A stretch of DNA of 64,000 nt from Galerina marginata (Eukaryota > Basidiomycota > Agaricomycetes > Agaricales > Galerinaceae): assembly GCA_023014335.1 (NCBI GenBank), contig JAECYW010000001.1, positions 3,472,001 to 3,536,000 on the forward strand. The letters run 5' to 3'. The position numbers were made by a program, and so were the translations under genes. Below the pieces are notes generated by a model. It was not told the origin of the DNA. It worked only from the letters and a program-made list of their open reading frames with translations, and did not search any database. Numbering within the stretch: the stretch's first letter is position 1; the number at the start of each line of letters is the position of its first letter. This document shows, piece by piece, positions 19,429-24,095 of this stretch.

Positions 19429-22400
19429 CTATGCCGCAACTTTCACCCGCAGGTACATCTCTGCTATTCTTCTCGCATCTTCTGGGTCCATATCACCGGG
19501 ATTTCCGTCATTTCCAAACCACTGGGCTGGAGAGTACTCGAATGGAGCAGGCGCTTCAGGCAGGCAAGTGAAATCCTGCTTGACTCCATTGTCATCAAAT
19601 GCAAATGGATCTCCGACTTTCTGGGGGAAGTGGAGAAGGACGGCATTCTTCAGTTCCATCGAGACATCGTGGTCAAAGTAATTCAATGGCGTCAGCGTGA
19701 AGCTAAGGTCAGACAGGCCATCAGTCAGCATGCCGTCGCTAAAATAAAGTACCTCGCCAAGACAAATTACGCACCTGGACGTCGCGATATTGGCCTTCGT
19801 ATTTGGGGAATCTTCGGCCTGTGGCTGTCAATTTATACACGTTAGTTTGTTCTACGAATAAGCCTGCCGACAATGGGGTAAAGTAATTAACGTACCAGGT
19901 GGTGCATTCCCAAGTTGATCCAGGCGACGAGGTCCTGCTGGGTGATATTTTCCCCGTCGAAGAATTTGTGGAAGTCGACTGGTGGGGAGCCCGGAAGATT
20001 AAGGTTCCACATGGAACTGGACGACGGCTCTGTTTCTTTGCGACGAGACACCGCAAGGTTGTACCGTGCCCAGTTGGCGTTATTAAGCAGTCTTTTGGAT
20101 CCAACGACGGTCTGAAAGCCCGTTCGATCAATTCATCACAAGGCTCCGACCTGAGATGTTCGAATGCACATACATTGTGAACCGGCGATTGGCCAGGATG
20201 AATAGCGTATCCCCTTGGGTAACCCCAGGCATTTGTAACGTCCTGGTTGACGAGCGCATAACCGCCTTGGAAGTTGGGAGGGTGTTTCAGGAGTGCGTCA
20301 TTTTCGTTTGTGATGTATTCCTTGAATATTTTCTGTTGTATGACCTGCTGACCCCAGTCATCGTCCAACCAAGAGTGTGTGATCTCTTCTTGCTTGGTCG
20401 TGGTCTTCAGCAAGGAATTGGCTGTTCCGGCGATGTCGAAATCGACCCTACAACAGTATAGGAGATGAGTGTCGAGTATCGAGGAATAACTTACTTGTAG
20501 TTGATTACATGGTCGTGCAAATTACCCACTGATGGACGTCGGTCAGCTGGTATATGGAAGACAAGCGAGCAATCTGACATACTCGATGTGTCGCGTATCC
20601 TGCTTCCGTATCCATCCTGGTTTGACCTCCAGTATCCGCCTTGCATGTAGCCTGAGGCAGACAGGCGAACCTCGATGGTTCCATCCAAGAAGAACAAATA
20701 GTCGAACTGAAAATTTCACGTCAGGTCAGCATATCGGAGGTGTAAACAATTCACAAACCACTAATCAAGAAGGAAGACAGAGTTTGTAAGTATAAATTGG
20801 GGGCCACCCTCAGCAGAATGACCTACAATAATCGTAGCTTGAAGTGAAAAAATGTAAGCAGAGTGTTAAGCTCAGGAAGGCAAAGAAACACACTTTCCAA
20901 TAGTACTGATGCTGCGAACAGTAAGGACGTATGACTTCACCGCTCCGAATTCTCCTTCAACATAACCAGAATGCCTTGATAACGGTTTCCCAGTATCTTG
21001 CTCGAATATACAGATGGCTCGGTCGCGTTTAACGTTGCCATAAACCATAAAACTTGTGGCTGGGAGATAGATCGCTTCTTGCGGGCAGTCGTAATGAGGT
21101 ATCATGTCTCTAACCAGGCCACCCATTCCGAAGTAACGATCCATCCATGCAGTAGTGGCCTGCAGAGGATCGTTCCCTCCTATAAATAGCTTATCAGTAA
21201 ACGAAAATATCATCAAAAAAAAGTCTTACCGTACTGCGCAAGCGCTTCCTGAGGCGCAAGCTGGGTTGATCGATTAATTTTCATCAGCAAAAATCGAGAA
21301 AGATTCATGATACAATTACCTGATAGATGATACGTTCGCCTCGGAAGCGGATATCCCAGAAATTCAATCCCATATCGCGGTCAAAGCCCAGGTACATACC
21401 CCACCCCATCCAACTGATGTACTGCTGCTGACGATCCACGCGATATCGTAAACCAGAGAACGATACTGAACGGGGACCAGGGAGGTGGTCGAGGTCGCGC
21501 TCTGGGCCGATGCGTTTTCGTTCTGTCCATGAGAGATCGATATTAGGTTCGGCCTGTTCTGGGTGCCGGATGAGAGTCCCGTTGTTGAACGCTTCTAAGA
21601 ATGATTCGGTCGACGGGAAGACTTGGTCGTGATAGATGAGCTTTGAATTTCGTCTAAGTTGAACAGGCTTAAAGTAGGAGTCTGATGGCTTACTTTGAGA
21701 ACTTTCCACTGTGAAGAATCGCTTCCAGACACGTCAACATATTTGTAAAAATTCACTGGCAGGAGGTATGCTCCAGCCACGTTTCTGCGCCAGGACATCC
21801 ATAGTCGCCTGAAACTGCCATCAAAGCTGAATGGACCAGACATGCCACCAACCAATGTGTCATTATCTAGGCCTCTCATGGTGCCCCCAAACAATTCCTG
21901 GTAGATGTTGAGTCAATGAGTGGTCAGTTGTGGTCTGAAATCGAAATACCTCCATGGCAGGAAGAATTGGGGCAACTGCTCGTTTCAAAAAATTAGGCAT
22001 TTCCATCATCTGCGCAAGGCCTCGGGCATTGTACGGAACGTCTTCGCGATGGTAGATGTCTACTAATGGGCGCATCATCGTATGGGCGCGGATGGGTAAT
22101 GGGCCAACCAGATAGTCCTTGACCACGGGTTCCTTCCGTCCTCCATGGTGGATGGTTACTCTAGCGTATCTCTCTGGCAGGGGAGACTTCTCCGGATCCT
22201 CCAGATACGCAAGAGCATCTTCCTTCGGTGGATAGTACTTCTCAATCAAGAATATCACATTATCAGAAAGCACAGAATCCTCCACCCGTGTCAGGTTCAG
22301 ATCTCGCTCTGGTGCCTCGAGCCATGCTGCGATTTCCAAACTTTCGGGAACTGTGAGGGACGCCCACAAGTTTAGAGGGGCTGGTGGAGAGGCTTGTTGA

Positions 22401-22675
22401 TATTCCGACGAAACGCAACGTCCTGCAGAAGAGGCCTCCGACACCGGTGTAGGACCTTTGTCGAGACTGCTGTACCAGCTATCTCCAAAGAAGATCTTCT
22501 GAGAAAAGATATCCGTGAAGTTATGAGAACCTCTCAAAATGACTGCGAAAGATAAGGCATTGAATAGGAGGGAGATGCCGAGTAGCCAGTAGCGTTTTCT
22601 TGGGTATGTCCTGTGGCTGCTGTCTTCACCAGGGGGATCTGGACTGATTGGCTTGTAAGCGTGACTTGAAGCCAT
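19429..22675 (-). CDS. Copper amine oxidase with N-terminal membrane anchor
   Basis: Oxidises primary amines to aldehyde, ammonia and hydrogen peroxide using copper and topaquinone (TPQ). Exons: 22675-21950, 21897-21694, 21640-21320, 21260-21230, 21179-20894, 20837-20827, 20760-20759, 20706-20583, 20528-20495, 20447-20174, 20111-19896, 19824-19775, 19738-19429. They total 863 codons only if the 11-nt and 2-nt exons are both used. Residues ~32-52 form a membrane helix (WLLGISLLFNALSFAVIL), so it is type II anchored or secreted. Motifs: the PHYDCP segment with the catalytic base, TIGNYDY with TPQ Tyr524, NLHDH and GMHH for copper. Several N-glycosylation sites occur. Family certain; the exon structure near Tyr524 is the uncertain part. 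Confidence 0.93.
20759..20837 (-). other. Predicted 11-nt and 2-nt micro-exons of the amine oxidase TPQ site
   Basis: The exon ending at 20894 stops after the first two bases of the Asn codon in TIGN. An AG at 20838-20839 opens an 11-nt piece, CTACGATTATT (20837-20827), before a GTAGGT donor; it supplies C-Tyr-Asp-Tyr plus one base. The next clear exon starts at 20706 (FDYLFFLDG) in a frame that needs two more bases. A dinucleotide TG at 20760-20759 is flanked by TTGATTAG and GTTTGT and supplies them. The result is NYDY-L-FDY, matching the spacing of the family. The two introns would be 66 and 52 nt. Confidence 0.5.
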
Positions 22676-23071: not shown

Positions 23072-24095
23072 ATGGACCCGGACGAAAGCATGCCAACTGA
23101 GCAACCTACACCATCCAGAGAAAAGGTATAATGCTATTACATGAAGATAATATAGTGCTGACGAGTTTTTCTCTCATAGACAGCACCTTTTCTCATTCGG
23201 ACATTTGTCAAAATCGGCAGCTTTCATCGACTAACACTTTTTGAAGATGGAACGCTTCCAACGACGGATGAACAGCAGCTCTTCACTTGGTATGTACTTA
23301 CGGTTTTTATTTGGACTAAATGTTCAACCAAGATGTAGGAAAGACGCGACTCTGCGTGAAGTATTGACAATCCTCCGAAATACCGCACCACACGTAGCAG
23401 AATACCGGCATCCACTCGCCCGTTTTTCCTTCCGAACGGTGTACGCAGATCCTAGTAACAAGGGCCGATATTCGCAAAAAGACATCGGCATGGTCTACTC
23501 TCGTGATATACTTGGAGAGCCAGGAACGTTGACCAGCACAGCACCCAGATTGTTACAAGATGTTGAACCAGCCCTCCGCGACAGCGGCGGCGAGCGCGAA
23601 CGAGACGAACGTACCTTGGACGAACTTCGTTTTCTACCCGGAGATTTCCTGCTCGTCGCCGTTCTCCTTCCCAAAAACGTGACACTGCCGTCCGAAATAT
23701 CGATCAAGGGTTCTGGAGCAGTAGCAGCAACAGGAGCGGCCTCTTCTGCCCCGTCGAATGGATGGAGGACAGGTGGAGGAGCAGCTCCAGCAAAATCTGA
23801 TGGAGGTTGGGGCAGGGGTTCCGCACCAGTCCCCCGTGGCGGAGGACATTGGCGAGGCGACTCAAACGCGCCTCCTCCGGGTCCTCGTGGTCGCGGTGGT
23901 GGAGGTCGAGGAGGTGGCGATTCCGGACGGGATAGGGACACCGACAGACCCGATTCTCGTGTTCCTCCTCCCAGAAGAGCTGATTCGCCGCCACCTCGGG
24001 GTGGACGGGGCGACCGTGATCGAGGTGGCCGAGGTGGCAGGCGATCGCGCTCGCGTTCAAGGACTCCGCCCAGGAGGAGAAACCGCTATGATTGA
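23072..24095 (+). CDS. SAP18: SAP18-family protein with long RGG/RS tail
   Basis: Sin3-associated polypeptide 18, a ubiquitin-fold subunit of the Sin3 histone deacetylase complex and, in animals, of the ASAP splicing complex. Exons 23072-23125, 23180-23289 and 23339-24095 give 306 aa. The SAP18 fold covers residues ~20-180: PFLIRTFVKIGSFHRL, TLREVLTILRN, FSFRTVYADP, a conserved DELRFLPGDFLLVAVL end. It is followed by ~120 residues rich in Gly, Arg and Pro, with RGG-like repeats and a terminal RSRSRSRTPPRRR. The human protein is 153 aa without such a tail, so this one adds an RNA-binding or splicing-speckle type segment. The third exon is a single long frame, so the tail is clearly coded. Confidence 0.92.

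Follow-up and report, generated by a model that had tools for sequence, protein, structure and literature searches.

Two micro-exons, one of them of two nucleotides, would assemble the TPQ motif of a predicted copper amine oxidase gene in Galerina marginata

The question raised by this locus is how the cofactor-forming motif NYDY of an amine oxidase is read from the genome, and whether an exon of only two nucleotides takes part in that reading. The gene lies on the reverse strand at 19429..22675 of the window, that is, the whole stretch of 64,000 nucleotides analysed here (contig JAECYW010000001.1, from an assembly of 69.3 Mb in 43 contigs), to which all coordinates refer; the features of the gene are all on that strand. 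The spliced model, together with the domain match and the relatives, gives a copper amine oxidase gene of 13 coding exons, which encode 850 aa plus a stop, with no internal stops; the first-pass annotation had the number of exons right, but its total of 863 whole codons has to be replaced by 851, stop included. A first model of 12 exons and 868 aa was dropped, as the comparison with P0001, the best-matching G. marginata protein among the relatives listed (801 of 868 residues identical, gaps accounting for 42 of the 67 differences), revealed one further intron of 54 nt (20529..20582, GTATGT...CATCAG) inside the open frame 20491-20715. P0001 does not have these 18 residues, and the intron is easily missed, being free of in-frame stops and a multiple of three in length.

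The earlier 868-aa version matches PF01179 at residues 367-792 (E 1.7e-109, 366.9 bits, cut-off 27), which places the protein in the family of this catalytic domain. In alignments judged by eye, the motifs HDH (within GNLHDHV, encoded by exon 9 of 34 nt, 20495..20528) and MHHLP, and the Asp before FGMG, align with 3pgb, 1rky and 1n9e; we take the HxH and a third His to be copper ligands, and the Asp to be the catalytic base. From its sequence, the product is a fungal copper/TPQ amine oxidase by predicted activity. The N-terminus (approximately 22675-22520 of the window) consists of a short polar stretch and one hydrophobic segment (YWLLGISLLFNALSFAVIL), which suggests a membrane-anchored oxidase. 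P0001 is also without 21 residues of exon 1 (approximately 22456-22394) around a Cys, probably through an annotation error of its own, that Cys being aligned with 3pgb and 1rky. An open frame at 23235-24095 of the forward strand (286 aa, with an Arg/Gly-rich tail) adjoins the oxidase gene.

The NY[DE]Y motif with its precursor tyrosine is present only if an 11-nt exon is included. Exon 5 (286 nt, 20894..21179) ends in ...STIG plus AA, in phase 2, and is followed by an intron of 56 nt, p2 (20838..20893, GTGTGT...CAAG), seen in the sequence and in fragments from relatives, which splits the Asn codon of NYDY. The 11-nt exon CTACGATTATT (20827..20837), supported by the splice paths and decoded in relatives, supplies the final base of the Asn codon, the codons of the precursor Tyr of TPQ, of Asp and of a second Tyr, and one base of the next codon. 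The intron p1 (66 nt, 20761..20826, GTAGGT...GATTAG), drawn from the splice paths and with a donor position common to relatives, interrupts that next codon in phase 1; the candidate 2-nt exon TG (20759..20760) completes it, T + TG giving TTG, Leu, across the junction. The intron p0 (52 nt, 20707..20758, GTTTGT...TTCAG), read from the sequence, lies in phase 0 before FDY; by eye, CTGAC occurs in it twice, 23 and 18 nt short of its end. Finally, exon 8 (124 nt, 20583..20706), found in the spliced model and in relatives, begins FDYLFFLDGTIEVRL... All three introns are GT-AG, and the positions first proposed for the 11-nt exon and for the TG, with TAG as its acceptor and GTTTGT as its donor, are confirmed. 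A second amine oxidase gene of the same genome (G000:C12:655000-659000; L009, about 1800-1900) has its motif intron, by eye, within the acidic codon after the tyrosine (NY-G/53 nt/AA-Y-I-W; here and below slashes mark splice junctions), a position that differs from those of p2, p1 and p0.

The arithmetic of the frame bears out the proposal that exactly two bases are wanted before FDY: exon 8 opens in phase 0 and the shortfall is two bases modulo three, and if the 2-nt exon is left out the frame breaks, with a stop at residue 570. Splice paths that contain no stop and keep the frame were enumerated; donors could be GT or GC, acceptors AG, no intron was shorter than 40 nt, and at most three internal exons, each of 60 nt or less, were allowed. 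Of the 51 paths obtained, only one gives NYDYxF. It uses both micro-exons, in agreement with the earlier reading that NYDY needs the 11-nt exon and the family-like NYDY-L-FDY needs the TG as well. A second path that keeps NYDY contains four extra residues and a GC donor, and it also uses the 2-nt exon. Thus, the exon TAG/TG/GTTTGT has standard sites and is needed for the frame, uniquely so under the limits of the enumeration.

One of the 51 paths, the only one with no internal exons, joins a donor just after 20890 to 20706 and yields STIGKC-FDY; if the micro-exons were skipped in this way, a protein without the TPQ tyrosine would be the normal product or an inactive isoform. The same junction is found in P0001 (STVGKC-FDY), whose predictor, given this coincidence, very probably took the default path. 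Skipping would, however, leave an enzyme domain that is intact but for the lost cofactor tyrosine, and although NYDY is absent in 51 of the 120 listed relatives, some of them shortened over a wider stretch, NYDYL is kept in all five entries that we take as cDNA, so that the relatives without NYDY point to annotation error. We therefore consider it very improbable that skipping explains the locus, an in-frame skipped form being conceivable in theory only. The five entries (P0014, P0020, P0041, P0051 and P0071) have lgn, which presumably denotes Logan read-archive assemblies, as sole source label; their frames are uninterrupted over 818-846 aa and the longest contigs measure 2,964-4,580 nt. The residue x after NYDY, which is the visible result in such entries, is Leu in all five.

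Spacing in the family also favors the assembly with both micro-exons. When the best 120 of 506 relatives were aligned, NYDYxF[DE]Y was found in 47, NYDY with other spacing or flank in 22 and no NYDY in the 51 already mentioned, so that the motif with normal spacing is missing in 73 of the 120. Among the 47, x is L in 32, I in six, M and Q in two each, and R, C, E, G and S in one each; the seven non-hydrophobic residues all correspond to one base plus GT or AG, as if a predictor had borrowed two letters of a splice site. One residue after NYDY is likewise kept in five alignments with solved structures (the five listed of 41 matches); 3pgb and the lysyl oxidases 1n9e and 1rky, related in sequence and compared as proteins only, share NYDY and the one-residue spacing. 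A non-canonical alternative, with a 10-nt exon ending at a TG donor (TAT/TGTAGG) and no 2-nt exon, keeps the frame with one exon fewer, but its product would be NYDY followed directly by FDY, which occurs in none of the 120 listed relatives (P0120 has NYDYDY), and it ignores the GT one base downstream, at a position common to the relatives. This alternative, which had been offered beside the micro-exons, is barely conceivable.

The intron text of the relatives was read from further searches, with a 168-aa piece (37 matches) and with an exon-5 profile of 16 sequences (best 120 of 145), which added 133 distinct fragments to the first 120 relatives. Many of these fragments are unspliced frames that enter introns, and thus their residues constrain the DNA, although what they offer is back-translated, degenerate protein text. 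In 68 of the 133, the fragment ends right after ...GK, as AA/GT and then a stop would give at p2. The pattern AG/YTAYGAYTAYN/GTRNGT, that is, the 11-nt exon with both splice sites, matches 12 of the 133 (P0125, P0146, P0150, P0186, P0192, P0194, P0204, P0212, P0217, P0222, P0235 and P0239), and P0193 and P0238 match it up to GT plus a stop; the looser 12-nt AG/YTAYGAYTAY was left uncounted, as it has chance matches in coding text of P0178, P0180 and P0250. The comparison with related mushrooms that had been called for, made on proteins and back-translated fragments, therefore agrees with both the one-residue spacing and the 11-nt exon.

A donor of consensus type that splits the x codon after its first base, the p1 position, fits eight of the 157 proteins compared: the annotated P0006, P0025, P0033, P0046, P0076 and P0117, and the fragments P0121 and P0150. 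In the first five, the text continues to FDY in whole codons, and a splice from the p1 donor to FDY would consequently leave them two bases short. P0117 (Athelia) was set aside despite its match, its motif being NYEF and its intron probably at another position, and was kept only among the five tails used below. A donor placed behind the whole x codon, the p0 position, fits P0007, P0028 and P0068 and, by eye, P0224 and P0229. These donors also bear on a further alternative, an error of sequencing or assembly in which bases were lost and an intact longer exon is hidden. The stretch was matched once in its own assembly, as such an error would allow; nevertheless, the same defect is seen in the independent G. 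marginata protein and relatives have a phase-1 donor at the same place, for which reasons this explanation, also raised at first, is extremely improbable.

Past the p1 acceptor, the decoded text of some relatives is compatible with the arrangement proposed for the 2-nt exon. Cyclocybe aegerita P0006 fits CAG/(TT or CT)/GTAYGT at a p1 length of 59, and C. chaxingu P0007, which covers those 18 nt in the next frame, is consistent with it, an agreement reached by 160 of 200,000 random pairs; this agreement leaves TT, in CAG/TT/GTACGT, and, with the Leu of P0007, the codon CTT. P0217 fits AG/(TG or CG)/GTRNG at a p1 length of 59, and P0125 admits two placements, AG/(TG or CG)/GTRNG at 68 and AG/(TA or CA)/GTRNG at 65; the nearest named proteins among those listed for these two are from Gautieria (P0053) and Panus (P0061). 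Text resembling the 2-nt exon (AG/TN/GT at a suitable distance) is thus found, as back-translated protein text only, in three lineages: Cyclocybe, P0125 and P0217. P0121 fits a contiguous AG/TN TTY GAY at a p1 length of 57, with p1 alone and the two bases attached to FDY.

Several controls apply to these decodings. With AG-to-GTRNG spacings of 0-12 and p1 lengths of 45-75 in the tails of P0006, P0033, P0117, P0125 and P0217, spacing 2 matches three of the five tails, spacings 0 and 12 two each, spacings 5, 8 and 10 one each, and the rest none. AG/TN/GTRNGT is matched by 364 of 20,000 residue-shuffled P0006 tails, and only this stricter form was counted because the looser AG/TN/GT matches coding text by chance in nine of 12 proteins. 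P0033 has no match in its 62-nt tail, nor has P0117 any, and P0085 (Serpula) gave no simple decoding. A search for the DNA of the relatives in viral_contigs and genome_contigs returned 24 and 28 pattern-matching stretches, respectively, none of which encodes a relative.

In the Galerina gene itself, the interval of 120 nt between the 11-nt exon and exon 8 contains AG/NN/GT exactly once, and its AG acceptors at a workable distance are two, 20760 and 20706. When the interior of the interval was shuffled 20,000 times with dinucleotides preserved, AG/NN/GT with both introns of at least 45 nt arose in 3.1%, a 2-nt exon giving Leu in 0.44%, and Leu plus G at donor +5 in 0.075%. Unsupervised splice-site models were also trained on 264 and 268 kb of the same genome; one drifted (501 noisy candidates) and the others were small (36 and 29). 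GTTTGT is the donor in two of the 36 candidates of that small set, and in the noisy set the p1 acceptor falls at the 49th percentile, the p0 acceptor at the 26th and the p0 donor at the 90th, scores that carry little weight because the training sets are noisy or small. In summary, the enumeration, the family's spacing of one residue and the intron text decoded in relatives agree in making both micro-exons the best reading, as first proposed.

Exons of this kind are already known, given the 1-nt exons of plants and Fusarium. The closest comparison is with the Fusarium CYP621A genes, in which a 1-nt exon was reported in 2026 (PMC12940212), a source that also cites exons of 2-5 bp in Arabidopsis, Drosophila and human. 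There, as here, a fungal enzyme gene has an ultra-short exon in a conserved motif, the database models of orthologs are wrong, and an over-long apparent intron betrays the exon (139 nt in CYP621A, 120 nt here); in contrast, the CYP621A exon is of 1 nt, belongs to an ascomycete P450 and is confirmed by RNA reads, whereas that of the amine oxidase is of 2 nt, is predicted from the genome, adjoins both an 11-nt exon and the catalytic residue, and would have originated from two adjacent introns. The conserved 1-nt microexons of plant APC11 and VPS55, confirmed by RNA-seq and RT-PCR, are likewise missing from annotations and some relatives are without the flanking introns, although they are plant exons of 1 nt, and the term "2-nt" has no match in the main text of that report (PMC8831610). 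Among basidiomycetes, the P450 genes of Phanerochaete chrysosporium share short introns and microexons, the shortest exon given there being of 6 bp (PMC1184071), and a Trichoderma microexon is presented by its authors as the first functional microexon reported from filamentous fungi (PMC11121469). None of the open-access literature matches listed, taken by title and start of abstract, concerns a 2-nt exon in a fungus.

With high confidence, then, we infer that the TPQ motif is built from four exons, that is, exon 5 (TIG + AA), C TAC GAT TAT T, TG, and exon 8 (TTC GAC TAT...), once three ordinary short GT-AG introns have been removed, and that the small exon arose from adjacent introns. Each intron would probably be recognized as a unit (intron definition), in which case the size of an exon matters little and a 2-nt exon would need no special machinery. 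The 11-nt exon would be an old one, shared widely among Agaricomycetes. The 2-nt exon was probably born when a second intron, the phase-0 p0, landed exactly 2 nt downstream of the older phase-1 p1: in their decoded protein text relatives show p1 alone, p0 alone or both, and such an origin is suggested by AG/TN/GT in three lineages together with TN joined to FDY in one. It is a more tentative idea, to which we incline slightly less than to its opposite, that the 2-nt exon is itself old and common to several mushroom lineages, and that the splicing efficiency of the two tiny exons could set the amount of active enzyme, as a single alternative donor leads to an in-frame protein without the tyrosine; the control of activity through micro-exon splicing is speculation.

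If true, the 2-nt exon would rank among the smallest of fungal exons, and relatives in which p1, p0 or both are present would allow a direct test of how intron gain gives birth to a minimal exon. The micro-exons would also explain the missing or distorted database motif in those 73 of the 120 listed relatives, and thus the database records of many mushroom amine oxidases may be mistaken in showing no TPQ tyrosine.
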